Source of the DNA: a virus
Length of the DNA stretch: 64,000 nt
Virus record (IMG/VR): IMGVR_UViG_3300036820_000008
Span: 1 to 64,000 of that record
Reading direction: 5' to 3' (one strand)
The position numbers and the translations under genes are program-made. Shown here piece by piece: positions 1-32,871 of the stretch; within the stretch, counting starts at the first letter, position 1, and every line of letters begins with the position of its first letter. A model generated the notes under the pieces. The model worked only from the letters and a program-made list of their open reading frames with translations. It did no database searches and was not told where the DNA came from.

Positions 1-3000
1 TCTCTATCACGCGCGGGCGTCCGGACGAAACCCAGACGGTTACCGGTAACCCACAGCAGCAGACCATGACGCTGAACAATAGGAATGGAACATTCTCTCC
101 CAACAACACGAACAGCCCATTCTATCCCTACATCAACAGGAACACTCAGCTCCGCACCTCAATAGTCGGTGCTGCTGGCCTCATGAACGCCAGCTCGTAT
201 ACCGGCTACCGATTCTGCGGAGAGGTGAGTGAGTGGCCTCCTGCCTGGGACAATACTGGCACGGACGTATACGTCCAGATAACGGTATCAGGACCGCTTA
301 GGCGCTATGTGCGCGGCGCGGCGCTCGGGTCTCCTATGCGTCGATACTACACAGGATTGACCGGAGATTATGCGCCACTCGCGTACTGGCCATGCGAGGA
401 CCTGACGGCGGCCACAGAGATAGCCAATGGTCTTAATAGCGGAAACGCTATGTTCGTCAATGGTAGCCCAGAATTTGCATCAAACGTAGCGTTCCTTGGG
501 TCAGATCCTATACCACAGCCACTTAGTTCGATGTGGCATGGCCTTACTGGTGCAGCAACGTCTCCGTCTGGTTCTGGATCCCTATTCGAATTCACCCCTG
601 GGACATACACCTGGACCGCCCCTAACGGTGTTACTACTGTGCAGGCCATTCCTTCAGGTGGAGGCGGCGGTGGCGGAGACCTGAGCACCACTCGTGGTGG
701 CGGAGGCGGAGGAGGTGGCGGCTGTGCATTCAATGGCGGCGTCGCCGTAACTCCTGGGAAGACATACACGTACATAGTTCCACCGGGTGGATCTGCCGGA
801 TTCAATGGCGGCAATGGATCGGCGGGCGGGGACGCTACATTCACAGGAGACTCTTCTACAGTAACCGGATCAGGCGGCAAGGGCGGTAACAGCGGCGCTA
901 ACGGTGGCACCGGAGGGGCAGGAGGGTCCGCCAATACCGGAGGCCCCGGCAACGCTTTTGGCGGCGGTAGCGGTGGCAATGGGCAGCTATCGTCCAACTC
1001 TTCAGTCAGCGGGTCTTTGCAGGGAGGGTCCGGCCCAACAGGAACTGGCACAGGCCAGCCAACTACGGCAGTCCAAAAGCAAGTCACTATGGCAGATGGC
1101 GTAACTACTGTTGCCGTTAAGTCCGGTGGTGGCGGCGGAGGCGGGGGCGGAACTGGCCCTGATGTTGGGGCTGGTGGTGGAGGAGCGGGGGCATATTCTG
1201 CCGGCAATATTGATGTCACTGGCGGTAGCACATATACATTCAACGCCGGTAATGGTGGTGGCGGTGGAGAAATTGGGTTCAAGGGCAACTATGGCGGTAA
1301 CTCCTTCGTTAACGGAGACACCAGTAGCGTCCTGGCCACCGGCGGTATTGGTGGTGGTGCTGCTGGAGGTGGCGGTGGCGGTGGCACGCCAAACGCGGGC
1401 ACTGGGCATACCGGCGGTCGTGGCGGAGATGGCGCTGAATCCACCACAACCTATGGCGGTGGTGGCGGAGGCGGAGGATCCGGAGCTGGACCCAACTCTA
1501 ACGGCGGAGCCGGTACTGACGCCAGTGGCCGTTCTATGGGCGACGGCAATGGCAATGGTGGCAATGGTGGATGGGGCCAGATTAGATCTGGAACGGGTAC
1601 CGGCACAGGCCAGTCTAATCCACAGACAGGCGGGGCAGGATATAACGGAAATGGCGCTGGTATTGGCGGGGGTGGTGGCGGCGGAGCTGGTGCCCTCGGT
1701 GTCCTTGGCACAACACCGAGCGGAAAGTTCGGTGCTGGCGGAGGCGCTGGCTGGATAGCCTGGACTTACACGATACCTAACTCTCCCTCGGGCGGCGGTG
1801 GTGGCGGAGGGGCTGGCCCATCAGGAGCCGGAGGTGCCGGGCAGAACACTGGTGCAGGCGGCAACGCTGGATCCGGAACTGGTGTCGCTGGATCGATGGG
1901 CGGTGGTGTCGGAGGCACCGTGGGCGCTGGCCTACCGGCAGTCGCGGGCGGCGGCGGAGCTGGCGGTCTTCCTGACATAGGCAATGGCGTCCAGTCATCA
2001 CAGAATGGCGCACCAGGACAGGTCCAGCTCTCCTGGGATGGCGGGGCTATATCTCCTGTCGCTGCAAACATCATCAGGTTCGCGCTTGACATCGACCCTG
2101 ATGGCGAGACGAATGATGTTGAGCTTATGTCCATCGTCGGCTATGGCACAATATCGACCATGGAGCTGATATACCTAACCGGTGGTCACCTGGAGCTGAT
2201 AGGCTATAACGATGCTGCGGTACAGCAGTTTACCTCTGGCAGCATAGCATTCAATGCAGATGGCGTTCCACTGTACATGTCTATATCGCTGACGGCCGAC
2301 GGGAACAATGCCGACTGGGTGCTCACCGGAATGAATGCCCTTACCGGATCCATCGTGGCTACGGCTACCGGTACGGTTGATGGCGTGATCGTTGGCAATG
2401 TCTCCGATATTTACATCAACCCGGCATCGGCGACCCTAGCCGACAACACGGCCATAGGACAGATAACCGTCCAGCAGTACGCAGACTCCCTCGAAAACAT
2501 ATTCACCGTCGTGGACGGATATAACGGTGAGACCGTAGCAGCGCGGCTTATCCGACTCTGCGCCGAAGAGGAGATTGGATGCGAGATCGTTGGGAACGCC
2601 GGATACGATGTCACGGTATCTCCGGATGCTCCTGCTGCATGGTGGAAGCTAGCTGACGGAAGCGGCTCGACAGCGATTGACTCTAGCGGCGGTGGGTCAA
2701 CGGGTACTGCCGCTAATGTAACATTCGGCAATACAAACGAGGCAGTGGCCGGAGACACGAGCGCCGCGTTCAATGGCAGCACATCGACGATAACGACATC
2801 GTACAATCCTTCCGGCCTCACGGCGATGAGCGTAGAGGCCTGGGTAAATCTGAACAATCTATCACAGACCGGGAATCCGCGCGTCATATGCAATAGCCAC
2901 TCCGATGTAGACAATCTCGGATTCGAGCTGTTCCTCAATGGCGGCAATGTGCCTTGCGCGGTGTTCGGCAACGGCACCGGGCATTCATTCATAACAAACG

Positions 3001-3932
3001 CGGTAGCCGTACCGGCGACCGGATGGACGCACCTCGTGTCTACCTGGGATTCGGCCACCGGCATAACCAGCCTGTACATAAACGGACAGATAGCAACTGC
3101 GGGCTCCCTCGCGGGGATCGTAGCGGCTGGGGCCAACGGTACGTCGATAGGATTCAACGACACCACTGGCAACGACTATGTCAATGGCCTTATCGCTGAG
3201 TGTGCTGTGTACTCATATGCACTGACCCCAGCTCAGGTTCAAGCACATTATACGCAGGCGACTTTGTCTGATGATACCCCGCAGATGGGCCCGCAGATCG
3301 ACGATACATTCGCCAACCTGCTGCAGTACTGCGAGAGTGTTGATCTTGGGCTGTTGTTTGAGACAACAGATCAGCTTGGCATAGGATACCGCACGCGAGT
3401 TTCTATGCTCGGCCAGAACGTCGGGCTACAGATGGACTATTCCCTAAGTCAACTAGCCAATGCACTCACTCCTGTGTCTGACGACCAGTATCTCCGTAAC
3501 GATGTGACTATCACCCGTAATGGCGGAGCTAGTGCTGTATGGCAGGATACATCTGGCCCGTTGTCTCTGCAGGATCCTCCGAATGGCGTTGGCGACTATA
3601 CCTACGCGAACACCGTGTACTGTTACGCCGATGCGCAGCTCCTGCCGATGGCAACATGGATCGGAACCGTTGGCACCGTCGACGATTACCGGTATCCCCA
3701 GATCAATATAGACCTATCTCGTGCTGCTGCGGCCGGACTACTTGGCCAGGCTGGCGGCATGGAGATAGGAGACTTCCTCCAGGTGATAAACACACCTACA
3801 TTTTTGTCGGCCAGCCCAATAGCTCAACTTATGTTCGGGTACACAGAGACCATCAATGCGTTCAAGTGGACCATGAGCATCAACGCGGTGCCAGAGGCTC
3901 CGTATGGAGAGGGAAGCCCTCCCATATGGTGA
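1..3932 (+). CDS. Minor tail protein with polyglycine domain and LamG-like lectin, 5'-truncated
   Basis: The open frame runs into the left edge of the window (first full codon at 3), and the residues before the Met at 66 (SITRGRPDETQT...) continue the usual start of actinophage tail proteins, so the gene begins outside. Numbering from that Met: N-terminal tail domain to about 190; a glycine-rich region about 197-655 holding at least two similar units that begin TWTAPNG- or VAVKSGG-like; a concanavalin A/LamG-like fold about 857-1060; then a tail-type C-terminus. Polyglycine sandwiches and LamG domains in tail proteins serve receptor binding, so this is a likely host-recognition protein at the tail tip. 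Function is inferred from architecture. Confidence 0.85.
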   Translation, partial: SITRGRPDETQTVTGNPQQQTMTLNNRNGTFSPNNTNSPFYPYINRNTQLRTSIVGAAGLMNASSYTGYRFCGEVSEWPPAWDNTGTDVYVQITVSGPLRRYVRGAALGSPMRRYYTGLTGDYAPLAYWPCEDLTAATEIANGLNSGNAMFVNGSPEFASNVAFLGSDPIPQPLSSMWHGLTGAATSPSGSGSLFEFTPGTYTWTAPNGVTTVQAIPSGGGGGGGDLSTTRGGGGGGGGGCAFNGGVAVTPGKTYTYIVPPGGSAGFNGGNGSAGGDATFTGDSSTVTGSGGKGGNSGANGGTGGAGGSANTGGPGNAFGGGSGGNGQLSSNSSVSGSLQGGSGPTGTGTGQPTTAVQKQVTMADGVTTVAVKSGGGGGGGGGTGPDVGAGGGGAGAYSAGNIDVTGGSTYTFNAGNGGGGGEIGFKGNYGGNSFVNGDTSSVLATGGIGGGAAGGGGGGGTPNAGTGHTGGRGGDGAESTTTYGGGGGGGGSGAGPNSNGGAGTDASGRSMGDGNGNGGNGGWGQIRSGTGTGTGQSNPQTGGAGYNGNGAGIGGGGGGGAGALGVLGTTPSGKFGAGGGAGWIAWTYTIPNSPSGGGGGGGAGPSGAGGAGQNTGAGGNAGSGTGVAGSMGGGVGGTVGAGLPAVAGGGGAGGLPDIGNGVQSSQNGAPGQVQLSWDGGAISPVAANIIRFALDIDPDGETNDVELMSIVGYGTISTMELIYLTGGHLELIGYNDAAVQQFTSGSIAFNADGVPLYMSISLTADGNNADWVLTGMNALTGSIVATATGTVDGVIVGNVSDIYINPASATLADNTAIGQITVQQYADSLENIFTVVDGYNGETVAARLIRLCAEEEIGCEIVGNAGYDVTVSPDAPAAWWKLADGSGSTAIDSSGGGSTGTAANVTFGNTNEAVAGDTSAAFNGSTSTITTSYNPSGLTAMSVEAWVNLNNLSQTGNPRVICNSHSDVDNLGFELFLNGGNVPCAVFGNGTGHSFITNAVAVPATGWTHLVSTWDSATGITSLYINGQIATAGSLAGIVAAGANGTSIGFNDTTGNDYVNGLIAECAVYSYALTPAQVQAHYTQATLSDDTPQMGPQIDDTFANLLQYCESVDLGLLFETTDQLGIGYRTRVSMLGQNVGLQMDYSLSQLANALTPVSDDQYLRNDVTITRNGGASAVWQDTSGPLSLQDPPNGVGDYTYANTVYCYADAQLLPMATWIGTVGTVDDYRYPQINIDLSRAAAAGLLGQAGGMEIGDFLQVINTPTFLSASPIAQLMFGYTETINAFKWTMSINAVPEAPYGEGSPPIW

Positions 3933-3961
3933 TATTGTGGATGTTTGAAGGAGGGTGGTAA

Positions 3962-4192
3962 GTGGCATCCCTTATTCCGTACTTTGTGTCAGGCGGAGGG
4001 TTCGCAGGAATAGTCGCATTCTGTTTCGCAATGGGATGGATACATCCTCAATCTGCAATTGATGAGCGTGACAAGAGAATAGAGAAGCTAGAGCATCTTG
4101 TAGACCTGGAGCGGGCTCGAGCTGACACCGGTGCCCTCGCGGTAACGGTCATGAAAGACGTCATGACAGCGCTCCATAAGGAGATCCAGTGA
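3962..4192 (+). CDS. Small membrane protein with coiled-coil tail
   Basis: GTG start preceded by GAAGGAGGG. Of 76 residues, about 5-25 form one hydrophobic segment, followed by a charged helix (DERDKRIEKLEHLVDLERARAD). This resembles small membrane proteins found next to phage lysis genes; a holin accessory or spanin-like role is possible but not shown. It overlaps the next gene by 4 bases (GTGA), so the two are translationally coupled. Confidence 0.7.
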   Translation: MASLIPYFVSGGGFAGIVAFCFAMGWIHPQSAIDERDKRIEKLEHLVDLERARADTGALAVTVMKDVMTALHKEIQ

Positions 4193-5592: not shown

Positions 5593-6396
5593 CTAGCAGC
5601 CGTCGTACGGTGCCCAGTCGGAAGTGCCGTCATCCCTTACCGTATTCCAGAAGATCTCGGTCTGGTATGCAGAGTCCGCATTGCCGAACAGTGCCGGATC
5701 GCCGCCGTGAGCAGCCCAGGTTTCCGCGCTGAACTGGTATAGCCCCCAGTGGCCAGAGGCGTTCCATATGTCAGGGTCGCCGCCAGATTCGGCCCGTATC
5801 ACGCATGCCTGGAATGAGGAGCTTACGCTGTATCCGCCGGACGAATGCGGAGCCTGGGTAGGCTGCGACGCTGTGTGCGGCGTAACGCTGGCTGCCATAA
5901 CGATAACCTTGGGAGCCGGGGGAGCGAGATTCTCTGGCGGCGCGGGGATTACACGCGGCATCGCAGGTATCTTCAGCTCCTGCCCGACGTAGATTATGTC
6001 GGCATACTTGATCGTGTTCTTATTGGCCCAGTAGATGACCGGCCATGCCTTGCTGTTATTGTACTCGATGCCCGCGATCTTCGCGAGGCTCTGCCCTGAC
6101 TTCACTCGGTATATGATCGGCAGGTGTACGGTTATTGGCCTGGACACGGCCGAGAGTTTCAGGCGCGCCATCGACATGGCGGATACCTGATCCGCGGTGT
6201 TCGTGACTGCCGTTGAAGATTGCGATGCATGCTGCGTGATCGCTGGTGCGACGATCTGAACCTGGGTCTCGCTAGCCGATGCAGGGCCGCTCATCGACAT
6301 GGCGCTAATAGATCCTACTGCCAGCATTGCCATGGTCGCTACAGATGCAACAGCGACCGAAGCAATCCCGGCAAAGTTCCTGATTCTCCTGCCCAT
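5593..6396 (-). CDS. Secreted LysM protein with lytic transglycosylase/Rpf-like domain
   Basis: Signal peptide: basic GRRIRN, a hydrophobic core to about residue 32, then SASASE-like cleavage region. A LysM peptidoglycan-binding domain spans about 96-143 (YRVKSGQSLAKIAG ... YVGQELKIP). A Pro/Ala linker leads to a C-terminal lysozyme-like fold about 195-267 with E203 in CVIRAESGG and the typical GHWGLYQFSAETW. This is the layout of exported cell-wall lytic proteins. The gene points away from the lysis block, so it may act on the host envelope or on neighbouring cells rather than in programmed lysis. Confidence 0.85.
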   Translation of the reverse strand: MGRRIRNFAGIASVAVASVATMAMLAVGSISAMSMSGPASASETQVQIVAPAITQHASQSSTAVTNTADQVSAMSMARLKLSAVSRPITVHLPIIYRVKSGQSLAKIAGIEYNNSKAWPVIYWANKNTIKYADIIYVGQELKIPAMPRVIPAPPENLAPPAPKVIVMAASVTPHTASQPTQAPHSSGGYSVSSSFQACVIRAESGGDPDIWNASGHWGLYQFSAETWAAHGGDPALFGNADSAYQTEIFWNTVRDDGTSDWAPYDGC

Positions 6397-8630: not shown

Positions 8631-8794
8631 AACCTTGGCGACCAAGGCACTATAGCACCGCGTCTCTCGGCGCGGCGAAGCCATAGGTACGACACAGGAT
8701 CATAATGCGCCCACCACTCCTTGAATTCACGCATCTTTCGCGCCTCATATTGGAATGGTGCCATTGCTGCCCTGAATCTATCTATGTCGAACAT
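8615..8794 (-). CDS. Small aromatic/basic protein coupled to the polymerase gene
   Basis: 59 residues; the ATG shares bases with the polymerase stop (TGATG), a classic re-initiation junction. Sequence MFDIDRFRAAMAPFQYEARK then KEWWAHYDPVSYLWLRRAE is helical and rich in Trp/Tyr/Arg. Could be a polymerase accessory by position only. No family recognised. Confidence 0.6.
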   Translation of the reverse strand: MFDIDRFRAAMAPFQYEARKMREFKEWWAHYDPVSYLWLRRAERRGAIVPWSPRLWRCA

Positions 8795-11127
8795 CAGTCG
8801 TCCGGATCTATTATGTAAATCTCGTCTGCCATCACAGGAGTTCCGAATCCAGCGATACGCTGGCCAACACAGATCACTACATCACGGCCAACGGTTATTG
8901 ACTGGATCTTCTTCTTGACACGAGGGAACACAAAACGATTGACTCGGATATACACCTCCTCCTCGGTCGTATCGATACAGCGTAGCGAACAATAGCTGAG
9001 GAGGTCGGGCCGGTATAGACTGGCGAGGATATCTTCAGCCTCTTCACCGGTACGGGAACGACGGTTCTCTACGGCGTCCTGCATGTTGCGCTCCCGTACA
9101 ATCCCCATGTAGACAACGCGCGGTCCCTTGCCGTAGTTCTTCTTGGCATTGGCCCCATACTCCTCCTTGATATGGATTGCCGCTACCTCCGCACCGTTAT
9201 GCGTGGGGGTGGGGACGAAATGTTTGTCGCCAAGGCCAGTCACATTCCACTCCCTACGCATCGATTGATTCTCTTCAACGAACTTGCGTACCCGATCAAG
9301 ACGCTGTTCGGTTATCTTCAGGCCGAATGGATCCGAGGACGTAGCAAAGTCATACATCTTTTCTACGGTCTTAGGGCCAATGCCCCTTATCTCCTGCAAC
9401 TGCTGCCAGCTACGAAACTTACCATTCCGCTCGCGGAACTCGGCTATGTTGTGTGCAGTCTTCTCTCCTATACCCGGTATCTCACGCCAGCCCGCTACAA
9501 GGCCCAGACTAGGGACCGGTCGCCAGCTCGGCCCGCTCGCATTCAGGATCGGAGGCACGATGTTGATTCCGTGACTTAGTGCGTCCCTCATCAGCTTGAA
9601 TCGCTGCTCCGCGTCGTCCGTCTTTGCCAGGTGGGCCGCATAGAATTCTAGAGGGTGGTGAGCCTTGAGCCAGGCACACCATAGCCCCAGAATGCTGTAG
9701 CTTACCGAATGCGCGTATACGAATGCATAGGTCCCCGAAGTGACAAGTCTTTTCCATATCCTGTCCGCTGTGCTTTCGTCAATTCCGTGTAGTCTTGCAG
9801 CACCCTCTACGAATGCCCCCATCGAGACGCCGAACGCGGCCTCGCCCATTTTCTTGCTGATGATACGCCTGATCTCGACGGCGTGCGTCCAGTCGAATCC
9901 CCCGACGTCTCTGACGATCTGGAGGATTTGCTCCTGGTATATGATTTGACCCTTAGTGTGACTAGTGATTTGTGTGACGATAGGGTGGTATCGTTCTGGC
10001 TCTCGACGGCCATGCTTGACATCGCAATACTCCGCAGTCGTTCCGGAGAAAAGAGGACCCGGACGCGAGAGCGCGTTGATATCGGTGACCTCGGAGAAAT
10101 TATCAGGATGTACATCCCTATTGACGAGCCTTGTCGCCCGACCCTCGAACTGAAATATCCCCGTGACGTCCCCATTGCGAAATATTTCCAGTGCCTTATG
10201 GTCATCGTCAGGGATTGCATAAAGATCCTCCAGAGTTAGCCCGGTCATCTCGAGACAGTTGGCTATAACGCCCATCGTGCTTAGGCCCAGCAGGTCCATC
10301 TTAATCATGTTCGCATACTCTACGTCGTACTTGTCGATGCTAAGTACCTGGCGTATCTCCCCGGCGGACTCACGCTCGTATACAGCGCAGATATCTGTGA
10401 GTGGCGTAGGGGTCACTATCAGCCCGGCCGCGTGAACACTCATTCCGCGGACATTGCCCTCGAGGTGCGTTGCCTTCCAGAGCTTGGGGTATGCGTCGAA
10501 TATCTCTCTGGCCGCTGGGAACATATTGACGGTGTCCTCGAGCCCGGAGTCAAAACGTGAGTCTCCACCTGATCGCTCAATAATCAGGTTGCTCACGACC
10601 TCCTTCGCGTAGCTGGGGACATCGTACACCCGTGCTACGTCGGCAAGACTGTTCTTACCTCGGTATCTGACGAAGTTGGCCACCATGCCGACACAGTCAG
10701 ATCCGTACCGATTCGCCATGTAATCGCGGACTTCGTGCCTACGTTCATCAGATATGTCGAGATCGATGTCCGGCAGGTCAGATCTTGTGATGTCCAGAAA
10801 ACGCTCAAAAAGAAGATTCGGGTATCGTACAGGGTCCACCTCCGTGATTCGGAGCAGCCAGGCGACCACGCTAGCGGCTACGCTACCGCGCCCAGGACCG
10901 ACCGGGATGCCTGAGTCCTTCGCCCAGCGTACCATATCGCTAGTGGCCAGGAAGAAGTCTGCAAATCCCTTCCCGATTATCAGGCCGAGCTCATATTTGC
11001 GGCGCGATACGTACCAGTCCTGTTGCTCTTGCGGACGCTGGCTTATCTTGCGATACTTCCATCCAAATCGGCACCACTGCCAAAGAAGGTCTTCAGAAGA
11101 AACCGCAGTCGTCAGGTCCGTTGGCAT
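8794..11127 (-). CDS. dnaE: DNA polymerase III alpha, polymerase part (palm to OB fold), lacking PHP
   Basis: 777 residues of a C-family replicative polymerase. Visible landmarks: IPVGPGRGSVAASVVAW (about 84-100), LPDIDLDISDERR with catalytic aspartates (about 118-130), the fingers motif NALSRPGPLFSG, a helix-hairpin-helix pair (GIGEKTAHNIAEF, IRGIGPKTVEKMY) and a C-terminal OB-like region. A normal DnaE is about 1150 residues and starts with a PHP domain; here the PHP is encoded separately at 11817-12755, three small genes upstream. The ATG follows GGAGAGGGCAT, so the split product should be made independently. Likely the main phage replicase. Confidence 0.93.
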   Translation of the reverse strand: MPTDLTTAVSSEDLLWQWCRFGWKYRKISQRPQEQQDWYVSRRKYELGLIIGKGFADFFLATSDMVRWAKDSGIPVGPGRGSVAASVVAWLLRITEVDPVRYPNLLFERFLDITRSDLPDIDLDISDERRHEVRDYMANRYGSDCVGMVANFVRYRGKNSLADVARVYDVPSYAKEVVSNLIIERSGGDSRFDSGLEDTVNMFPAAREIFDAYPKLWKATHLEGNVRGMSVHAAGLIVTPTPLTDICAVYERESAGEIRQVLSIDKYDVEYANMIKMDLLGLSTMGVIANCLEMTGLTLEDLYAIPDDDHKALEIFRNGDVTGIFQFEGRATRLVNRDVHPDNFSEVTDINALSRPGPLFSGTTAEYCDVKHGRREPERYHPIVTQITSHTKGQIIYQEQILQIVRDVGGFDWTHAVEIRRIISKKMGEAAFGVSMGAFVEGAARLHGIDESTADRIWKRLVTSGTYAFVYAHSVSYSILGLWCAWLKAHHPLEFYAAHLAKTDDAEQRFKLMRDALSHGINIVPPILNASGPSWRPVPSLGLVAGWREIPGIGEKTAHNIAEFRERNGKFRSWQQLQEIRGIGPKTVEKMYDFATSSDPFGLKITEQRLDRVRKFVEENQSMRREWNVTGLGDKHFVPTPTHNGAEVAAIHIKEEYGANAKKNYGKGPRVVYMGIVRERNMQDAVENRRSRTGEEAEDILASLYRPDLLSYCSLRCIDTTEEEVYIRVNRFVFPRVKKKIQSITVGRDVVICVGQRIAGFGTPVMADEIYIIDPDD

Positions 11128-11332
11128 ATGCCCTCTCCATCAGGTCGTCTCGAACGCCGGTAGCCCTACGCTCTAGCTTACCGTACACACCGATGTCGGA
11201 TAGCTGGCGTGATGTTACTGCGATCACCTTGAGAACAACGAGCGCAGTCATATCCATTGTCGGTTTCCCAAGCGGCCAGTTTCGGACTACCTCCCATGCA
11301 GAGTCTAGCTGCGGCTTAAGTACCTCCAGCAT
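11093..11332 (-). CDS. Small helical protein between the PolIII halves
   Basis: Start placed at the ATG of MLEVLKPQLDSAW (79 residues), preceded by GGAGGAG; the frame extends upstream but that part is out-of-frame relative to 11316-11678. Mostly helical, ending VRDDLMERAYANGPDDCGFF, and overlapping the polymerase start by 35 bases. No family recognised. Confidence 0.55.
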   Translation of the reverse strand: MLEVLKPQLDSAWEVVRNWPLGKPTMDMTALVVLKVIAVTSRQLSDIGVYGKLERRATGVRDDLMERAYANGPDDCGFF

Positions 11333-11678
11333 CTCCTCCGCTATCCCCGCCCTGATCTCCCTGTCCGAGGTAACGGTCCCTGGTTTTGGCGACAATGTCT
11401 TTGCTGAAGATGTCTTCATCAAAGGCAATTTCATCATCTCCTTCTGTGGCCAGGCCTCTGATTCTTTCCATGAAATCGTCGAAATTTACCACCCGAACAC
11501 GTATTTCATCGATGGCCATGATTGAGTGACAGTGTTCTCCTGTCTCTACCGTTCCGGCTATTCTGCAAGTCTCGCACAGAAGATCTTCCTGGTCAGCTTG
11601 CTCTGGACAAGGAACATTGAGAAAACAGCATCCTTCGCAATGACATGGCCCTGATTGTGGCCGAAGAAGCTCAGCCAT
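11316..11678 (-). CDS. Cys-rich zinc-type protein between the PolIII halves
   Basis: 120 residues. The N-terminal half has a dense Cys/His set (CHCEGCCFLNVPC ... CETCRIAG ... GEHCH), typical of a zinc cluster. The middle is mixed alpha/beta; the tail is Gly/Asp-rich and overlaps the next gene. ATG overlaps the upstream gene by 8 bases. No family recognised. Confidence 0.6.
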   Translation of the reverse strand: MAELLRPQSGPCHCEGCCFLNVPCPEQADQEDLLCETCRIAGTVETGEHCHSIMAIDEIRVRVVNFDDFMERIRGLATEGDDEIAFDEDIFSKDIVAKTRDRYLGQGDQGGDSGGDAGGT

Positions 11679-11826
11679 GGAACCTTATCCAGTGCTTGTA
11701 GTAGTTCTTCAGGGTACGAAAGCGACTTCCGGAATAACGAGAGTGCACCATTCCGCACGAATCGTTCAGGGGACAGTACAGAAATGTACCGCCACGCTTG
11801 GGCTCGGGTATGGCCGTCATGTCCAT
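11671..11826 (-). CDS. Small C2H2 zinc-finger-like protein
   Basis: 51 residues (start at the first of two ATGs, MDM). The spacing C-x5-C then H-x4-H (YCPLNDSCG ... YYKHWIRFHG) fits a C2H2-type finger, so nucleic-acid binding is plausible. The ATG overlaps the PHP stop. Too short for routine ORF calling; supported by composition and coupling. Confidence 0.6.
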   Translation of the reverse strand: MDMTAIPEPKRGGTFLYCPLNDSCGMVHSRYSGSRFRTLKNYYKHWIRFHG

Positions 11827-12755
11827 GGTTTTAGGTCCTTTTCTTCTATGGGGTACTTGAGGCGTTCTGCCTTCGGCAGCGTAACGTTACACAGACTGGC
11901 TATGTACGCGGTGTTCTCTATTGCCTGCCATGCGTCGGTGCGGCCGAGTCCTGTCTTCATCAGACGAGCTGCGAGCTCTCGGTCTGTCGCTGGCAGCGTC
12001 AGTGGTACGTCGTAGTTCCACTTACGCATAGCGTCATCAACGCTGTCCCCTCCCCGTCGAGCCGTGTGGAGAATGGCCTGCATCTCGGCGTCCTCCATCC
12101 TTGGGTAGTGAACATCATGCGTTACAACTAGAGGTATGTCGAACTCACGGCTTAGCTGCACATATGACTTGTTCATCATACAGCTTCGCTCTAGCTCATA
12201 GAATGGCTGTATCTCTAGATAATATTTCTCCCCAAAGATGTTACTGAACGGCTCGATGACGGCCGACGCCGCCTCAAAGTCAGGAGTGTCGTTATGCTCT
12301 GGCGTGCCTTTTCCTCCAAGCATTGCACAAGCCAGCCTGCTCCCAGAGCATCCAGATAGGACAATGAGACCGTCACTGTTATCACGTAGCGAGGATCCGC
12401 TGACCGTTGGGTGATAGTAATAGTCTCGCCATGACTGAGTGACGATTCGATTGAGATTTCGGTACCCTCCGGTGTCCATGGCGAGGATGGTGAGGTGGTG
12501 TTTGAACTGCGTCCTAGTATCCGGCTCCACAGACCCACAATATGCCTCCAATCCAAAGATCGGCTTGATGCCAGCTTTGATCGCTGCCTTCTCAAGTTGG
12601 AAATGTGAGCTTACATTGCCATGCTCCGTAGCCGCAATTATCTTGTACCCGAGTTCAGCTGCACGCTGTACATGCTTGGTCGGGGTGGCGAATCCATCCC
12701 CGAATGAAAACGTTGTGTGATGGTGCATATTGCAAAACATCGGGGACTTGCTCAA
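11817..12755 (-). CDS. dnaE: Stand-alone PHP domain of DNA polymerase III alpha
   Basis: 312 residues starting at a TTG inside a TTGA overlap. All PHP landmarks are visible: HHHTTFSFGDG (11-21), ATEHGN (42-47), FGLEAYCG (68-74), HHLTILAMD, LSGCSGSRLA and THDVHYP. The full metal-ligand set suggests an active phosphoesterase/proofreading site, unlike the degenerate PHP of E. coli DnaE. It ends at the usual ENTAYIASLCNV junction and the polymerase part resumes at 11127, so the two proteins together make one normal PolIII alpha. Confidence 0.92.
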   Translation of the reverse strand: MSKSPMFCNMHHHTTFSFGDGFATPTKHVQRAAELGYKIIAATEHGNVSSHFQLEKAAIKAGIKPIFGLEAYCGSVEPDTRTQFKHHLTILAMDTGGYRNLNRIVTQSWRDYYYHPTVSGSSLRDNSDGLIVLSGCSGSRLACAMLGGKGTPEHNDTPDFEAASAVIEPFSNIFGEKYYLEIQPFYELERSCMMNKSYVQLSREFDIPLVVTHDVHYPRMEDAEMQAILHTARRGGDSVDDAMRKWNYDVPLTLPATDRELAARLMKTGLGRTDAWQAIENTAYIASLCNVTLPKAERLKYPIEEKDLKPWT

Positions 12756-14298: not shown

Positions 14299-14949
14299 CT
14301 ATCCGCCGATCTCGTTGGCACGCTTCATGGTCTGCAACCATGCAATGGCATTGCGCGGGTCGCTCTTTAGTCTGTCCGCATAATGCAGAAGTGCGTGAAG
14401 CAGGCGTCCCTGGCGGAGAGCATCGTCGACGGCTACGTGCGGAACGATATCGTCCAGCTTGACGTTGAACAGCTTGTACAGATCTCCCTCCTCCGGCCTC
14501 TCGTAGTACCCGGACACGGCGAGCAGCCCGTTCGCGTAGCTGCGGATGTCCATGCATGCGAACCCGAGTGGGTTCTTGCCGTAGTAGTTATGCATGTACC
14601 AGTTAATGAAGGTGAAGTCGAAGCCAGCGGGCCACGCTACCGCTACTAGCTTACCGTACGCCGCGAGGTCGATAAGCCATACAGCAAACTGCTCCATTGC
14701 CCTGCTGGCCTCGATCTGGTTCTCATTGACGATACGCCAAGCCTCCGGCTGAGTGCCCCACCAGTCCATGGTGTCGGTGTCCTCGAAGGAACCATCGATC
14801 GGAATGATGTTGCGAGAGAACGACATTCCCCTGCTCACCACAAGATCGTCGGCATTGAATGCTACGGCACCGACAGACAGCATGCTGTTGAGGCCAGGAG
14901 ACGGGCCGTTGGTCTCGATGTCTAGCGAAATGTAAACTTCCTGCCTCAT
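14299..14949 (-). CDS. DnaQ-like 3'-5' exonuclease
   Basis: 216 residues of the DEDDh family: D10 and E12 in LDIETNG, the second motif in PAGFDFTFINWY, and the closing HVAVDDA with its His and Asp. This is the proofreading epsilon-like fold and probably works with the nearby PolIII alpha parts. The start codon overlaps the upstream stop (ATGA). Confidence 0.85.
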   Translation of the reverse strand: MRQEVYISLDIETNGPSPGLNSMLSVGAVAFNADDLVVSRGMSFSRNIIPIDGSFEDTDTMDWWGTQPEAWRIVNENQIEASRAMEQFAVWLIDLAAYGKLVAVAWPAGFDFTFINWYMHNYYGKNPLGFACMDIRSYANGLLAVSGYYERPEEGDLYKLFNVKLDDIVPHVAVDDALRQGRLLHALLHYADRLKSDPRNAIAWLQTMKRANEIGG

Positions 14950-16586: not shown

Positions 16587-16945
16587 CGGTACCCCTCAGG
16601 AATTCGAGAACGCATCTTGTCCATCTGCCGATCGATGACTTTCTGGGTTCCCTCCCGGTCTTTTGTGAAATGTTGAATGCACAGAAGACCCGTCATCACA
16701 ATGTCGCCGATCTCCATGAGCATTTCGGATCTGTCGACGGCACTTGAAGGTTTGTTCTGCTCTTTTCTTGGGTTCTGTCCTGTCGAGGATATCAGGAGGG
16801 AGATAGCCTCACCTAGCTCCTCGGCCACCTTGGATACCCTGGCCCAATCTTGGGCCAATGGCTGATCCTTGTACTTCTGGGACACTTCGCCATCGAGCCA
16901 TTTGTCTGCAGCCTCGATGACCTCCCAGTCGATGCTGTCGCTCAC
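16583..16945 (-). CDS. MazG-like nucleotide pyrophosphohydrolase
   Basis: 120 residues, four-helix pattern with KVAEELGEAISLL and later EMLMEIGDIVMTGLL, the EExxE...ExxD metal-binding arrangement of all-alpha NTP pyrophosphatases. It would remove unwanted nucleotides; placed directly after ThyX on the same operon, which supports a role in dNTP pool control or in reversing host (p)ppGpp signals. Confidence 0.7.
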   Translation of the reverse strand: MSDSIDWEVIEAADKWLDGEVSQKYKDQPLAQDWARVSKVAEELGEAISLLISSTGQNPRKEQNKPSSAVDRSEMLMEIGDIVMTGLLCIQHFTKDREGTQKVIDRQMDKMRSRIPEGYR

Positions 16946-17886
16946 ATAGCATCAGGCGCTAGGCGCGCGGCTCCCTCTCGGAGGGCCTCCTGCGGGTCGA
17001 TGTCCACCCATACCTTCGGACCTTCGCCCTTACGATGGTGATCCATAACGCGATCGCGGATGGCGCACCAGCGATCGGTCTCTGCCATGAACTCGCACTT
17101 CCCAGTGCGGTAACAGATTGGGAGGAAGATACTGGTGATCAGCTTCTGCTGCCACTTCTCAGACTCAGGGCCATAATTCTCTATTGCCCCGAGGAATCCA
17201 TACCAGACCATCTTCCATTCGTACTGTGCCTGGGAACACAGTCGCATTCCGGCGTGCTCCGCGAGGTTGCGGAGATTCGTCTTGTAGTGTATGCGCGTCG
17301 TTATGTTCGTGGGTAGCAGGCCACGGGCATCCTCCGCTGGTACCCCTCCGTCCACCATGGCATTGTAAGCCCACGAGTTCTCCTTGACGGCCTTGTCCCA
17401 TACCAGGCGCATCGGGTGGTCTTCCTTGAGGTCCCTGATCGAAGGAGGGTACGCCACCTCTAGCATCGCGTTGTCCTTCACGGCAAAGCGCTGTGACTCC
17501 TGCACGTAAACAGCCGTACGCTGCCGAACGAGTTGATGGGTAAAGGCACGGGTCACGCCCTCGATGAGGAAGTGAAGGTCGATGAACTCCAGCGGTGCCT
17601 GCAAAGCCGTCCTGGTCATGTCAGAGAACCACTTGCGAGCAGTCTCTTCTTCGATCTCGTCTGGGCTCTTTATGATGCGACCCGCATACAGTTCAGCTGC
17701 GGCGGCCATCACTCTCAGAGGATTCGCCGTCATGCTTACGAGATGCACTTGCGGAAGAACCATTTCGCCGCGGTCTGCCGCTTCGTTGTGCTGTGCCTGG
17801 TACATCGCGACGTCCGCGTACCTGACCACGTCTGTGCCGGGGTTGCGGCTGACGTTAACCTTCGATTTCGCGGGCTCGTGATTCAT
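16942..17886 (-). CDS. thyX: Flavin-dependent thymidylate synthase
   Basis: 314 residues. The ThyX motif is present as HQLVRQRTAVYVQESQRF (117-134), matching the family RHR-x7-S pattern with RQR in place of RHR. Further family features: early VSMTANP and C-terminal NMVW/WYGFLGA-like helices. It makes dTMP from dUMP using FAD, NADPH and methylenetetrahydrofolate. Overlaps the MazG-like gene by 4 bases and the HIT gene by 32. Confidence 0.9.
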   Translation of the reverse strand: MNHEPAKSKVNVSRNPGTDVVRYADVAMYQAQHNEAADRGEMVLPQVHLVSMTANPLRVMAAAAELYAGRIIKSPDEIEEETARKWFSDMTRTALQAPLEFIDLHFLIEGVTRAFTHQLVRQRTAVYVQESQRFAVKDNAMLEVAYPPSIRDLKEDHPMRLVWDKAVKENSWAYNAMVDGGVPAEDARGLLPTNITTRIHYKTNLRNLAEHAGMRLCSQAQYEWKMVWYGFLGAIENYGPESEKWQQKLITSIFLPICYRTGKCEFMAETDRWCAIRDRVMDHHRKGEGPKVWVDIDPQEALREGAARLAPDAM

Positions 17887-21780: not shown

Positions 21781-22692
21781 TTATGCAGGAGTCTTCGGCC
21801 GCCTCCGCGGACGACGATGCAGTTGTGCAGAGTGCACTTGACGTACTTCGTCTCCGTCTGGTCGCTCGTCGAGGCTTCCCTGAATTCGCTCAATGATGCC
21901 ACGCATAGCTCCGTAATCGCCGTCGACAACGTCCACATAATCGCCAAGACAGTTGAACCTGTCCTTAGCATGGAACGGAGGCTCAGGCTGGGCCAGAGCA
22001 CGCCGCACCCTCTTGCCCTTGCTGCTCGCCTCAGCCGAAACACTGTAATAGAGATTGACGTCAGTCTGGGCGCATACATACTCGGCTATTGCGCCCTTCT
22101 TACCCTGGATGGCGGGGAGCACCCGCTCCTCTCCCTCTTCATCTTCACTCATCATCTGAGTTGCGATCAGGATCGAATTGTATTGCGCGTCGACTATGTG
22201 ATCGACGAACCGCATGAAACCGTTCTGCCACTTCTGGTGATCCTGGATAGCCGGGATGTCCAGGTCACGAGAACCGTTCTTGATGTTGTTCATCCTAAGG
22301 ATCCACCGAATGTACAGCATCTGCATTTTCGGCAGGCTGTCTACAACCATCCAGTCCTCAGGACCAAGCCTATCGTCGGCTACCTTGAGGCCAGCGACAC
22401 AGTGCTCCCAGGTGGGAACCCGAATCAGACCTGCTTTGTGCCCCGCGCGCTTCGCGGCGACAACTCCCTTCTCTGTCGAGAAGAATGTGGCGTTGGGAGC
22501 ACCGCCTGCGAGCACTGTCTTGCCCACGCCGCTCGGTCCGAATAGGAGGATGTTCTTGCTCTCGTCAAAACTTGCGAGGTCCTCGATCTCAACTTCGACC
22601 TCATCAACCTCCATGCTCTCCGGCTCTTCACGCTGAGCCCTCGAGGTTGCGCGAGCACCGCGCCTAGCACCACGTCTTGCAGGAGGAGCCAT
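21781..22692 (-). CDS. Sak4/RecA-like phage recombinase ATPase
   Basis: 303 residues. Basic, disordered N-terminus (MAPPARRGARRG), then Walker A FGPSGVGKT (about 51-59), Walker B WMVVDSL, and the phage RecA-like helix-strand order (FMRFVDHIVDAQYNSILIAT). This matches AAA_24/Sak4 single-strand annealing and recombination ATPases, which are nearly always next to an SSB, as here. Confidence 0.8.
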   Translation of the reverse strand: MAPPARRGARRGARATSRAQREEPESMEVDEVEVEIEDLASFDESKNILLFGPSGVGKTVLAGGAPNATFFSTEKGVVAAKRAGHKAGLIRVPTWEHCVAGLKVADDRLGPEDWMVVDSLPKMQMLYIRWILRMNNIKNGSRDLDIPAIQDHQKWQNGFMRFVDHIVDAQYNSILIATQMMSEDEEGEERVLPAIQGKKGAIAEYVCAQTDVNLYYSVSAEASSKGKRVRRALAQPEPPFHAKDRFNCLGDYVDVVDGDYGAMRGIIERIQGSLDERPDGDEVRQVHSAQLHRRPRRRPKTPA

Positions 22693-22781: not shown

Positions 22782-22970
22782 CTACCCCTTTGGCTCTTCT
22801 ATCGTCCATTGATACTCGTTGTTCTCTATTTCATTAGCCAACTCTGGGTGCATCTGCAGATAGACAAGCAGGTCCTTGGGGCTATCGAATTGGACTTGCC
22901 TCAAGGTCTTTCGATGAGCGATGCTAACCGCAACTGACGCGGGCATGTGTAGCCCTACCTTTATCGACAT
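22782..22970 (-). CDS. Hypothetical small protein
   Basis: 62 residues; the ATG overlaps the nuclease stop (TAATG), so it is translationally coupled. Contains QVQFDSPKDLLVYLQMHPEL. No family recognised. Confidence 0.6.
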   Translation of the reverse strand: MSIKVGLHMPASVAVSIAHRKTLRQVQFDSPKDLLVYLQMHPELANEIENNEYQWTIEEPKG

Positions 22971-23962
22971 TATGCTGCCTTCCGATAACGGTCGTATGGG
23001 TCCTGGTCACCATTGAACTGAGCCCTAGCGATCTGCCTCCATGCGTCACCACCGCGCTCGTGAGCCTTACACATGATGAAGAACTCGCAGAATGTGCAGT
23101 CTTTCATTGTGCTCTTGATGACAGGCATTGTCCCGTCACGCATGGCATTCATCCATGTGACCTCATTGGCCAGACGCTCAAGCTGGGTCCTGCGCTCAGC
23201 TCGGCTGCGTTCAATCGGCTCAGGCCTGACGAATCTTTCCGGCGGCTGACGCTTGCTGACAGATCCATTCTGATTCAGGTAAGCGCCGCTCGCATCCCGC
23301 GGACGTTCATCAGCCCGACTCTTGCGCAGGAAATTATACTGAATTCCGGCGATTTCCTCGCCGTCCTTCAGTGTACCGTCCTTGCGCAGGATAGCCCCGG
23401 CCAGCGCCCAGTAGACGCCGCCCTGATCGTCGAGCTCGAGGTAAGCTGGCTGTATCTGGGAGGCAGTCTTGTGCTCCATCAGATAGATACGGCCGTCCCT
23501 TCTGTCACGGTATACGCCGTCCCACGTGCTCCAGAAGTGAGCGACAGAAATGCCCCTATATTTAACAAGGACTTTGAATGGTCGCTCGATAGCAAGAACG
23601 TCCCAGTGGTCGTCATTGCCGTAATTCTCGACGTATCCTTCCAGCATGGATACACCGAGTTCTCTGGCGTCGTCAAACTTTGCACGCTCACCTTCGGCTC
23701 GTTCGTGATCAGCCGGGGACACGAGTATGTGACGCTGCTCATCGCCAAGCCATTCAAGAAAGGTGTCAGCGGGATGCGGGCCACGTTTCTTCCCCTTCAG
23801 GTACCAGGCAGCTAGTGCCTCGTGGACTCCGATGCCGAACCAAAGTGCGTCTGGCACATCACCCTTTGGCACAAGACCGTCCACGTACCGCCAGTACCAC
23901 TTCTGCGGGCAACGTCGGAAACAGGTACGCTCGCTTGTCGTGACGATGGGCAGCGTCAGCAT
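22970..23962 (-). CDS. Cas4/RecB-like PD-(D/E)XK nuclease with iron-sulphur cysteines
   Basis: 330 residues. N-terminal SERTCFRRCPQKWYWRY (C14 and C18), a central nuclease core ending YLMEHKTA (E and K of the motif) with a following VYWALAGAI helix in place of the usual QxxxY, and a C-terminal CTFCEFFIMC. The Cys spacing C...C-x2-C-x5-C is that of Cas4 and AddB cluster nucleases. Works probably with the neighbouring Sak4-like ATPase in end resection and recombination. There is no CRISPR array or cas1/cas2 nearby. Confidence 0.85.
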   Translation of the reverse strand: MLTLPIVTTSERTCFRRCPQKWYWRYVDGLVPKGDVPDALWFGIGVHEALAAWYLKGKKRGPHPADTFLEWLGDEQRHILVSPADHERAEGERAKFDDARELGVSMLEGYVENYGNDDHWDVLAIERPFKVLVKYRGISVAHFWSTWDGVYRDRRDGRIYLMEHKTASQIQPAYLELDDQGGVYWALAGAILRKDGTLKDGEEIAGIQYNFLRKSRADERPRDASGAYLNQNGSVSKRQPPERFVRPEPIERSRAERRTQLERLANEVTWMNAMRDGTMPVIKSTMKDCTFCEFFIMCKAHERGGDAWRQIARAQFNGDQDPYDRYRKAA

Positions 23963-29656: not shown

Positions 29657-30913
29657 CTAGTAGGGAGCGACACCCTTGGTACGGGTGACCTTTCGGCCGC
29701 CGGTCGCAGCCTTGGCGGGCGTAGCCTTGCCCTTGGCGGGGGCAGCCTTGGCAGGCGGGGTTGCAGCAGAACGGGTGCCCGGCGTCTTGGCGGGAGTGGC
29801 GGGCTTCGCGGCAGCCTTGCCCTTGACAGGAGCGGCAGCCTTGACCGGAGCCTTGCCCTTGACGGCCTTGACCGGGGTCTCTGTCTTCGGTGCCTTGGCG
29901 GCCTTGGCCTTGGCGGCGGCGACAGCGGCTGCCTTCTCGTTCTTGCGTGCTTCGCGCCGGTCGATGTTGAACTGCGACCGCTGGAACTCCATGCGCGCGG
30001 TGCCGGCGATGGCAACCAGACGAACCGGGTCCTCAGCGCCGCACTGCTCGATCGAGGAACCGACAGGCTCGAAGATCTCCTGGTTCATCCAGGCGGCGAA
30101 GTCCTCCATCGTGGGGGTGATCGCCTTGGTCGCGTAGGGGGTGTAGTCAACGGCGTCGGAGTCCTCCTCGTCGTCGTCTTCCTCCTCGTCCTCCTCGTCC
30201 TCGTCGTCACCCTCCTCCTCGTCCTCGTCTTCGTCGTCATCGTCGTCGTCTTCGTCGTCCTCAGACTCGTCGTCCTCGTCCTCTTCGGACTCGTCCTCGT
30301 CGTCCAGGTCCTCGTCGTCGACGTCCTCGTCGAGCTCGTCGTCCAGTTCCTCCTCGACCTCCGGCTCCGGCTCGGTGACCTTGGCGGCCTTGGTGGCCCT
30401 GGACTTAGTGGCTCCACGGGGCGGCATAACTTGCTCCTTATGTGCAGGGATAATTCGTACTTCATCGAGAGCCCTACTATACCGGCTCTTAGGGGTCCGC
30501 GCTACCCTAACGGTCCGATCACCTAGAATTTCTTCTCCGATTTTACCTGATCTTTCCGTGTGGTCCTCAACGCGGTACATAACCTTATACTTACCGCGCC
30601 TCAACTTTCTGCAAGTTACCGTGTAGTAACCGTCGGCAACGGACTGCCCTGATATTCCATACTGGTATGCAATCTCCAAAGTACGTCTCGCTGTCTTGGC
30701 CGGATCGCCAGTTCCCAGTCCAACAAGCTCCGGCTCACCATAATTTTTCGCCAGGTAGTCTAGGGTGTCCTGCCCAGTCATTGGTTCTGTCAGGATGTGC
30801 TTCCCCATAATTCTCTCCGCCTCGACATACCATGATCCCCTGATATACGATGATGACACAAATGTAAGGCTTGGACCAAGATACCTTACCTGTCTGGGTT
30901 TGTCTTGTGCCAC
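29657..30913 (-). CDS. Acidic/basic histone-like protein, possible nested second start
   Basis: 418 residues: an N-terminal domain (about 1-155) with repeated beta/basic stretches, then a long Asp/Glu run, a short domain (TMEDFAAWMNQEIFEPVGSS) and a Lys/Ala/Pro tail containing PGTRSAA like the SSB-like protein. Within it, at 30427, the Met of MPPRGATKSR follows a perfect AAGGAG and an internal extended -10 (30476-30481), so a shorter 256-residue product is probably also made. Likely DNA-binding; function inferred. Confidence 0.65.
   Translation of the reverse strand: MAQDKPRQVRYLGPSLTFVSSSYIRGSWYVEAERIMGKHILTEPMTGQDTLDYLAKNYGEPELVGLGTGDPAKTARRTLEIAYQYGISGQSVADGYYTVTCRKLRRGKYKVMYRVEDHTERSGKIGEEILGDRTVRVARTPKSRYSRALDEVRIIPAHKEQVMPPRGATKSRATKAAKVTEPEPEVEEELDDELDEDVDDEDLDDEDESEEDEDDESEDDEDDDDDDEDEDEEEGDDEDEEDEEEDDDEEDSDAVDYTPYATKAITPTMEDFAAWMNQEIFEPVGSSIEQCGAEDPVRLVAIAGTARMEFQRSQFNIDRREARKNEKAAAVAAAKAKAAKAPKTETPVKAVKGKAPVKAAAPVKGKAAAKPATPAKTPGTRSAATPPAKAAPAKGKATPAKAATGGRKVTRTKGVAPY
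30470..30490 (-). promoter_or_regulatory. Internal promoter before nested start at 30427
   Basis: Minus strand GCCGGTATAGTAGGGCTC; TATAGT at 30476-30481, inside the coding region of 29657-30913 and 48 bases before the nested ATG. Same CGGTATA core as the other phage promoters. Confidence 0.5.
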
Positions 30914-32871
30914 CTGGCGGCCTCCAGGGCCATTCTCCTTCTTGCCTTTGGCTTGTTTGCCTCAATGACGGCACGCTGCTCGTCAGCATACGCCGCCATC
31001 CATCCATCAACAGAGTTGCGGCTGAACAGACGGTGCACCATAACCTGATGTATACGGCTGACGCGATGGATGCGGGAGACGAGCTGTGTCTCTTCATCAG
31101 AGGTCCATAGAGGGTCCATGATAACAAGATCACTGCAGCAGGCGTCTAGGGTGATTGCTTCGCCGCCAGTCTTGCTCTGTACGATAAGCACCCTCGCGTC
31201 ATCATCAGGATCATTGAACCTCTCCTTGATTTCGACGCGCCCTCTGTCGCTCGTAGCGCCAGTCAGGCGTAGCACAGGTGTCTTGAACTCCTGCTCTATG
31301 CACACAGACAAGAGATGGACGATCTGCGTGAAGTTGGATGCAACAAGCACCTTCTCGGGATGCCCTTCCCTCTCTAGCAAGAATTGCAGAATCCAATCTA
31401 CCTTGTTCGAAGGAAGGCCCGGAACAAATGTGTTGCCTTCCATGTATCCGTGTGCCGTAGAAAACTGTCGTAGCCTCGTGATCTCCGCGAGCGTCCCGTT
31501 GGCCGTGAGCAGGCCGCCCCTAAGTTTGGCCTCGGCGAGAGCTGCCATGCTATTGTATGATTTGGTCTGTTTGGGGTCCATGTCAAGCCATATGCCGTTC
31601 ATGCCATCGGGATCATTCTCTGGCGGCACCCCTACGTACAGAATTGGAGGCAGGTCAGGGGCGGCCATCTCCTTGGTGCGAGCTAGATAATACGGCCGAA
31701 TGGCTGCATCAAATCCTTCCTGGTTCAGTGGCTTTGGAACCTTAGCTCCTCCTGCCACCACTTTACCGTATCTCCCTTCCTCGACCCCAAAGTGATTGCC
31801 GGCAAAATTCCAGTAAGACCCAAAAACATCAGGACGACACCAGTTGAGGGTGCCCCAGCTCTTGGTCAGCTTGGATCGGAACGGCGTGCCGCTCAGAGCT
31901 ATCGCAAGTCCCTGTGGCCGAAGCTGGTGACGTAGTTTCATAGCACCATAGCGCCCCTGGGTGATGCTTTTGCTACCAACGTTGTACGTAGATGCAAGTA
32001 GATTGTGGGACTCGTCGATGACAATTGCATCCCACTTGCGTTTGAATAGGAATGGCCATTCGTACTCGGGCACAACTCTGTGAGGGTGATCCTGCTTGCA
32101 CTTTCCGTACTGGAGCTTGGCCGTCCACCTTCCGCTGAAGTTGCCATCCTTGCTCCAGTCCTTGTATTCCTTGCACTGCTGGAAACGCTTGGCCCTGATC
32201 ATCTCGTTGTTTATAATGAGCATGCACTGCACCTCAGGCCAGTTCTTACGGAACGCCGCGTATCCGTCCATAGCGTCCTCGCGCTCAGCACGGGAACCCT
32301 GCGCCACAAACACCTGCACGTTCGGTGCCCAGCGCCTCGTCTCCCTTTCCCAGACATTACGGGTGGCTGTGCGCGGACAGCCAACGAGGATGTCTTTACA
32401 GTCAGCCTCTATCAGGGCGGCCAATGTCTGCAGGGTTTTCCCGAGTCCTGGTTCGTCCCCTAGTATACACTGCCCTGCAAGCGCGATGAAGGCTGCGCCA
32501 GCTGGCTGATAACTCCTGTCCATCATAGCGGCGTGAAGAAATGGCGACTCCGACTCAACACGGGGGAGCCGGGCTATCGCGCCGTCGCGTAGCTGTTCAA
32601 GTGCCTCTCCTGCAGCTATGGCGGCACGAGCCCATATCGATAGGGCGGGTTCTACCTGCAGCTCGGACCCGAAAACACGCCGGAATGTTCGGCATGTGTC
32701 CATTGTTAGCGGATAACGCCAGTAGAGGAACATGTCTTTCTCTCTACCCTCTACATGCTCATACACCGGCTTGGAGCCGGGTATCTTTTTTGCCCACTCA
32801 GGTCCCTCCCCTCGAGCGTACGGTATGTCCGCAAGTACGTGATTGCCATCAGTCGTTATTCTTGCGCGCAC
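30886..32871 (-). CDS. SNF2-family helicase/ATPase
   Basis: 661 residues. N-terminal substrate-side domain (1-125), Walker A LGDEPGLGKT (137-146), motif II DESH in VIDESHN, motif III LSGTPFRSK, and C-terminal SNF2 motifs V/VI (LIVQSKTGGEAITL, SRIHRVSR). Typical of phage SNF2 helicases that remodel or displace DNA-bound proteins. Which complex it serves is not shown. Confidence 0.88.
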   Translation of the reverse strand: MRARITTDGNHVLADIPYARGEGPEWAKKIPGSKPVYEHVEGREKDMFLYWRYPLTMDTCRTFRRVFGSELQVEPALSIWARAAIAAGEALEQLRDGAIARLPRVESESPFLHAAMMDRSYQPAGAAFIALAGQCILGDEPGLGKTLQTLAALIEADCKDILVGCPRTATRNVWERETRRWAPNVQVFVAQGSRAEREDAMDGYAAFRKNWPEVQCMLIINNEMIRAKRFQQCKEYKDWSKDGNFSGRWTAKLQYGKCKQDHPHRVVPEYEWPFLFKRKWDAIVIDESHNLLASTYNVGSKSITQGRYGAMKLRHQLRPQGLAIALSGTPFRSKLTKSWGTLNWCRPDVFGSYWNFAGNHFGVEEGRYGKVVAGGAKVPKPLNQEGFDAAIRPYYLARTKEMAAPDLPPILYVGVPPENDPDGMNGIWLDMDPKQTKSYNSMAALAEAKLRGGLLTANGTLAEITRLRQFSTAHGYMEGNTFVPGLPSNKVDWILQFLLEREGHPEKVLVASNFTQIVHLLSVCIEQEFKTPVLRLTGATSDRGRVEIKERFNDPDDDARVLIVQSKTGGEAITLDACCSDLVIMDPLWTSDEETQLVSRIHRVSRIHQVMVHRLFSRNSVDGWMAAYADEQRAVIEANKPKARRRMALEAARWHKTNPDR

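Follow-up and report, generated by a model that had tools for sequence, protein, structure and literature searches.

A DnaE-type DNA polymerase encoded as adjacent PHP and polymerase genes in an environmental phage genome and in related phages of actinobacteria

In the bacterial DNA polymerase III (Pol III) alpha proteins of the literature surveyed here the PHP domain belongs to the same chain as the polymerase, and a phage that encodes the two apart raises the question of whether both genes still serve one replicase. Such a case is provided by a 64,000-nucleotide stretch of viral DNA (the window; positions 1 to 64,000 of the 94,579-base record IMGVR_UViG_3300036820_000008), whose minus strand carries a stand-alone PHP protein of 312 residues (11817-12755) and, beyond a gap of about 690 bases with three small overlapping open reading frames (ORFs) inside, a C-family (DnaE-type) polymerase of 777 residues without PHP (8794-11127; hereafter Pol). 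Our preferred answer, to which we assign a probability of nearly 0.8, is that the replicative polymerase of this phage is a DnaE-type enzyme of two polypeptides, for which we infer docking in trans, exonuclease activity of PHP, a function of the short PHP tail described below and coupled translation.

A PHP protein and a polymerase in two genes

The two proteins correspond to consecutive parts of one-piece DnaE. PHP residues 4-297 align with residues 3-275 of the E. coli protein and Pol residues 9-574 with residues 286-862, so the cut falls at the PHP/palm boundary, in agreement with an earlier note on this DNA that had described a Pol III alpha encoded as two proteins with the polymerase part starting at the palm. 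Both are separate, intact ORFs, and the own start signal that the note had ascribed to each is found: AGGAG precedes the TTG start of PHP, which overlaps the stop codon of the upstream gene (TTGA), and GGAGAGG precedes the ATG of Pol. The first protein matches Pfam PHP (E=1.9e-33) and is predicted to be a zinc-dependent 3'-5' exonuclease as well as a structural subunit. The second comprises palm, thumb, fingers, a helix-hairpin-helix (HhH) and a C-terminal OB-like domain, its Pfam matches lying in order at residues 27-281 (DNA_pol3_alpha, 5.9e-67), 287-429 (finger, 8.9e-37) and 549-594 (HhH), and phrog_11165 spans it end to end (E=1.9e-260); no tau-binding C-terminal region was seen in it. Membership of the C family thus holds by homology, although the one-chain architecture with an N-terminal PHP domain is absent, PHP being a separate ORF.

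Both active sites are complete. All nine metal ligands of PHP (HHDHEHCDH: H11, H13, D20, H45, E70, H87, C136, D214 and H216) are in place, as the note had recognised, and the whole set was also found in 36/38 other split and 28/28 fused relatives scored, the two exceptions (loci L015 and L082) being frame-broken at the first motif. The nine-ligand pattern HHDHEH[C/H]DH, to which the window protein conforms, has been used as the criterion for an active PHP (PMC12926913), and the nine-ligand PHP of M. tuberculosis DnaE1 is a zinc exonuclease, the proofreader of that enzyme (PMC5636811). Neither of the signs of a broken gene that the earlier note had named, a missing catalytic aspartate or a frameshift or stop explaining the split, was found: D122, D124 and D278 are present in Pol, and all three in 69/69 aligned polymerases. 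Single-chain AlphaFold models of both proteins are confident. That of PHP (predicted local distance difference test, pLDDT, 93.6; predicted template modelling score, pTM, 0.89) has the PHP domains of Taq and E. coli Pol III alpha as its best PDB matches, and that of Pol (pLDDT 89.9) has M. tuberculosis DnaE1, with weak OB-fold matches for the C-terminal part. As judged from the ratio of nonsynonymous to synonymous change (pN/pS) between the window and the relative L006, which is 0.20 for PHP and 0.12 for Pol, both genes are under purifying selection.

On this reading, PHP would supply the zinc 3'-5' exonuclease and structural support, as the N-terminal domain does in one-piece DnaE, and the Pol chain would contribute the remaining domains (palm, thumb, fingers, HhH and OB). 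A single operon, in which the starts overlap and are probably coupled, would encode both chains, and these would dock through the interface of the one-piece enzyme, perhaps with help from the conserved tail of PHP. In the Pol III of E. coli, PHP has a structural role, and its mutation lowers the stability and activity of the enzyme (PMC3666897); loss of the covalent link would therefore be tolerated only if docking persists. Precedents for reassembly are found in the split 43A/43B halves of the family B polymerase of Aeromonas phage 25, which co-purify and are active, and in nrdA of Aeh1, a gene in pieces (PMC2988022). By analogy with these enzymes, PHP and Pol probably reassemble in trans.

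Split and fused forms and the PHP tail

Homologues of Pol were found by tblastn in 1322 phage records and homologues of PHP in 897, in every case at less than 60% identity. Split or fused state was assigned by profile searches in 95 related loci, made up of regions of cultured phages and environmental viral contigs and including a few near-copies (individual loci bear L numbers below). The gene order that the earlier note had proposed to look for in related phages recurs: 54 loci, the window and 53 others, are split, with PHP and Pol adjacent on the same strand and cut at the PHP/palm boundary, and 41 are fused. Among cultured phages the split form occurs in Krampusvirus (Hiddenleaf, Hager), Wollypog, Terapin, Onyinye, Ajin and Send513, and the fused form in Troll4, P3.1, Yara, Dryad, Rumi, LuckyLeo, NadineRae, Darwin, Pleakley, Predator and others. 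The polymerase tree requires at least nine changes of state, and a tree in which one branch divides all split from all fused forms, as a single event would require, was rejected (approximately unbiased test, p-AU 2e-35). The clade of the window holds 32 rows, 30 of them split and two unassignable, with a Shimodaira-Hasegawa approximate likelihood ratio (SH-aLRT) support of 99. On the evidence of these loci, the two-gene layout is old and widespread in related actinobacteriophages. Neither the root nor parsimony decides between one old split with several refusions and many fissions; the former is suggested by a tryptophan tail common to distant split lineages.

The two genes also travel together. 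Their evolutionary distances correlate in split (r=0.88) as in fused phages (0.78), which implies joint inheritance of the pair, and in split loci PHP stays beside Pol, either overlapping it or within about 1.25 kb. Intact active sites, purifying selection, the clade-wide split and this co-inheritance lend good support, at the level of sequence, to the view taken in the earlier note of a bipartite replicase and not a broken gene.

One detail of that view has to be revised. PHP had been thought to stop at the exact end of its fold; it carries instead an additional short C-terminal tail, EEKDLKPWT (11817-11846), which is kept in split relatives and missing from fused ones. Near the C-terminus of PHP a tryptophan is present in all 54 split loci, as Pro-Trp in 40 of them and mostly within a D-x-x-P-W motif (typically DLxPW), whereas any tryptophan was found in only 3/40 linkers of fused proteins, which have no DLxPW tail. 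The same codons are put to a second use: in 47/54 split loci the next ORF (of at least 40 residues) begins at an ATG or GTG overlapping the tail tryptophan codon, and in five of these (L009, L010, L078, L082 and L107) that ORF is Pol itself. In the window the start codon of the gene after PHP (11824-11826) overlaps the Pro-Trp codons (CCATGGACATGA), an arrangement that suggests translational coupling. The seven split loci in which no ORF of that length begins there, Krampusvirus and Ajin among them, still keep the tryptophan, which favours a role of the protein, although few independent lineages are covered; in Krampusvirus and Ajin PHP continues for about 40 residues. A purely protein-level explanation of the tail was dropped, since the frequency of the start-codon overlap makes a constraint on the nucleic acid an equal candidate. 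The tail may accordingly serve in docking, in coupling or in both. It is tempting to speculate further that the split form of phage replicases is both recurrent and selected, and that in it the DxxPW tail docks the proofreader in trans while the same codons start the next gene and make the junction a standing entry point for passengers and mobile endonucleases; we hold this wider proposal only tentatively and consider it doubtful as a whole.

The proposed place of PHP in the replicase and the genes at the junction

Several observations weigh against a two-chain replicase with PHP as its proofreader. The PHP frame is broken and Pol intact in 6/54 split loci against 0/41 fused ones (one-sided p=0.03), so that some split phages may be able to do without an active PHP. 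Upstream of PHP the window encodes a DEDDh-type 3'-5' exonuclease of 216 residues (14299-14949, minus strand; phrog_192, 1.1e-18; Pfam Rv2179c-like, 4.1e-11), with homologues only in L006 and L012 among the fetched loci, which could proofread in place of PHP; it may also be regarded as a possible second proofreader in the phage. Lastly, the tail may be conserved for the start codon that overlaps it and not for the protein. The first two of these points would fit a PHP protein that has left the replicase to act alone, as a nuclease or phosphatase, beside a Pol that needs no PHP. This alternative survives better than any other, but we consider it unlikely, given that PHP adjoins Pol in every split locus, that the two diverge in step and that the closest folds of PHP are the PHP domains of Pol III alpha and not free PHP enzymes.

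The breaks themselves fall at two sites. The first is the same codon, directly after the metal-binding T-E/D-H-G motif, and is affected in no fused relative; breaks occur there in L011 (about 780-940), L068 (1290-1440), one phage recovered from four samples (L078/L079/L080/L142/L143/L145/L146) and L100 (4860-5010). In this order the insertions measure +7, +7, +6 and +4 bases, that of +6 placing an in-frame TGA between two GGT codons; the downstream frame is still open and conserved, and in 3/4 cases the insertion brings the ATG of a CATGG into frame with the remainder of PHP. The second site, after the L-H-H-H-S motif, is broken in L015 (about 5905-5940) and L082 (about 5100), which belong to separate lineages and apparently have 2 extra bases. 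Clustering of six breaks into two three-codon groups was reached in 0/200,000 random draws. The variety of their net shifts (+1, +1, in-frame stop, +1, -1 and -1) speaks against a single mechanism of recoding; scars of end joining where a nuclease cuts, or a simple loss of PHP, are the likelier candidates. The PHP gene of the window is intact at both sites. A separate peculiarity was noticed in L042/L051, whose PHP (ORF 2900-4156) has about 44 extra residues inside the domain, near profile position 75.

The gap between PHP and Pol was described in the earlier note as holding three zinc-type genes, which overstates the case. The first (51 residues, 11671-11826) resembles a C2H2 finger by eye, with two cysteines and a C-terminal H-x4-H; the second (120 residues, 11316-11678) is indeed Cys-rich (CxCxxCC..C..CxxC); the third (79 residues, 11093-11332) is helical and lacks a zinc motif. 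For the last, the ATG at 11332, where the similarity of its homologues begins, is a likelier start than that of the longer ORF from 11437. All three lie on the minus strand and matched no Pfam or PHROG family. The note had also suggested that they may be partner proteins, and obligate partners of both halves, bridging them or binding zinc, could be envisaged from the shared place and operon, from the helical gene standing directly before Pol in three relatives (L006, L011 and L015) and from an excess of zinc-like ORFs between the two genes (9/48 versus 43/852, p=0.001, with a crude gene caller and some of these ORFs being endonucleases). The comparison of close relatives, where the content of the gap runs from nothing to many different ORFs, rules out fixed partners. 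In L009, L010 and L082 nothing intervenes, the two genes overlapping; a 48-residue membrane-like peptide lies there in L007 and L014, homing-type endonucleases in L003 (7120-7650; HNH_3 and NUMOD4), L011 (1629-2102; NUMOD3) and L093 (5558-5923; Endonuclease_7, Endonuclease VII), and assorted other ORFs in other split relatives. No homing endonuclease was recognised by Pfam or PHROG in the gap of the window itself. The finger-like and Cys-rich genes are missing from most close relatives: the former has one homologue, upstream of PHP in L015 (4509-4685), and the latter only one in L006 (32% identity). The helical gene has four homologues, that in L012 standing after Pol, and no convincing match was found for it in cultured phages. 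Moreover, the Cys-rich and helical proteins evolve faster than PHP and Pol in the comparison with L006 (pN/pS 0.49 and 0.36). Obligate partnership is thus very improbable, and the small junction genes are, by these gene contents, exchangeable passengers and not fixed subunits. The junction would be a site of entry and exit for such genes, including homing endonucleases in relatives, and the enzyme would not need them. Passenger ORFs in L008, L012, L015 and L055 looked MazG-like by eye; Pfam gave no match in L008, L012 and L055, and no such assignment is claimed.

Hardly any room is left for a degrading or mis-assembled dnaE, in which the split is a mutation and PHP a pseudogene in the making. 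The 41 fused relatives and the broken PHPs of some split ones could be read in that sense; it is already contradicted by the intact window genes with their own start signals and low pN/pS, and by a split common to the whole clade and to six cultured phage lineages, and the same layout in 54 loci rules out a frameshift, stop or assembly artefact. That the halves are joined after translation by a split intein, as in the DnaE of cyanobacteria, or by programmed frameshifting, can be dismissed, as no Pfam intein family matched PHP, Pol or the small ORFs, neither side of the break has an extra domain, PHP ends in its short conserved tail and 690 bases with three other ORFs intervene.

The rest of the replication module lies on the minus strand of the window and comprises ThyX (16942-17886), a Sak4-like protein (21781-22692), a PD-(D/E)XK exonuclease (22970-23962), an SNF2-type helicase (30886-32871) and a primase-polymerase with ATPase (40133-42277).

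Comparison with known systems

Phages that switch between one and two chains offer a natural test of the role of PHP, in proofreading or in support, and of the way in which a replicase withstands being divided between two domains, and the conserved tail provides a concrete candidate for docking. The split DnaE itself is already known: it was remarked on in one sentence for cluster EF (PMC7302621, 2020), and GenBank annotations exist in several phage genera. What is new is its extent, its recurrence, the tail and the passenger junction. A systematic account of the distribution of the split, of the tail or of the junction was not found in the literature searched, which covered few subscription journals, and novelty is to that extent not proven.

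The closest known systems are the two-gene "DnaE-like DNA polymerase III" of actinobacteriophages (Krampusvirus, Wollypogvirus, Terapinvirus, Onyinyevirus, Papyrusvirus and Microbacterium phage Ajin), which share with the window separate neighbouring PHP and Pol genes, with zero to two genes between them, but belong to different phages (about 39-49% Pol identity) and have different passengers. The one-piece DnaE of Troll4, Yara, Rumi, P3.1 and Predator has homologous PHP and Pol parts and, in most of these phages, ThyX or oxidoreductase genes nearby; unlike the window, it is a single ORF whose linker lacks the DLxPW tail. M. tuberculosis DnaE1 has the nine-ligand metal site in common with the window PHP, within one polypeptide. 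Among T4-like phages, genes in pieces (Aeh1 nrdA, split by mobE, and 43A/43B of phages 25 and 44RR) likewise encode replication enzymes in two neighbouring genes that reassemble, with homing endonucleases at the junction (PMC2988022); these are, however, a family B polymerase or a ribonucleotide reductase, and in our case endonucleases were recognised only in the relatives L003, L011 and L093. Finally, the split minimal Pol III alpha of jumbo phages (PMC7824862) is, like that of the window, a C-family polymerase in two proteins, but there the catalytic core is cut and the genes lie far apart, whereas here the cut falls between PHP and palm and the two genes have stayed close.

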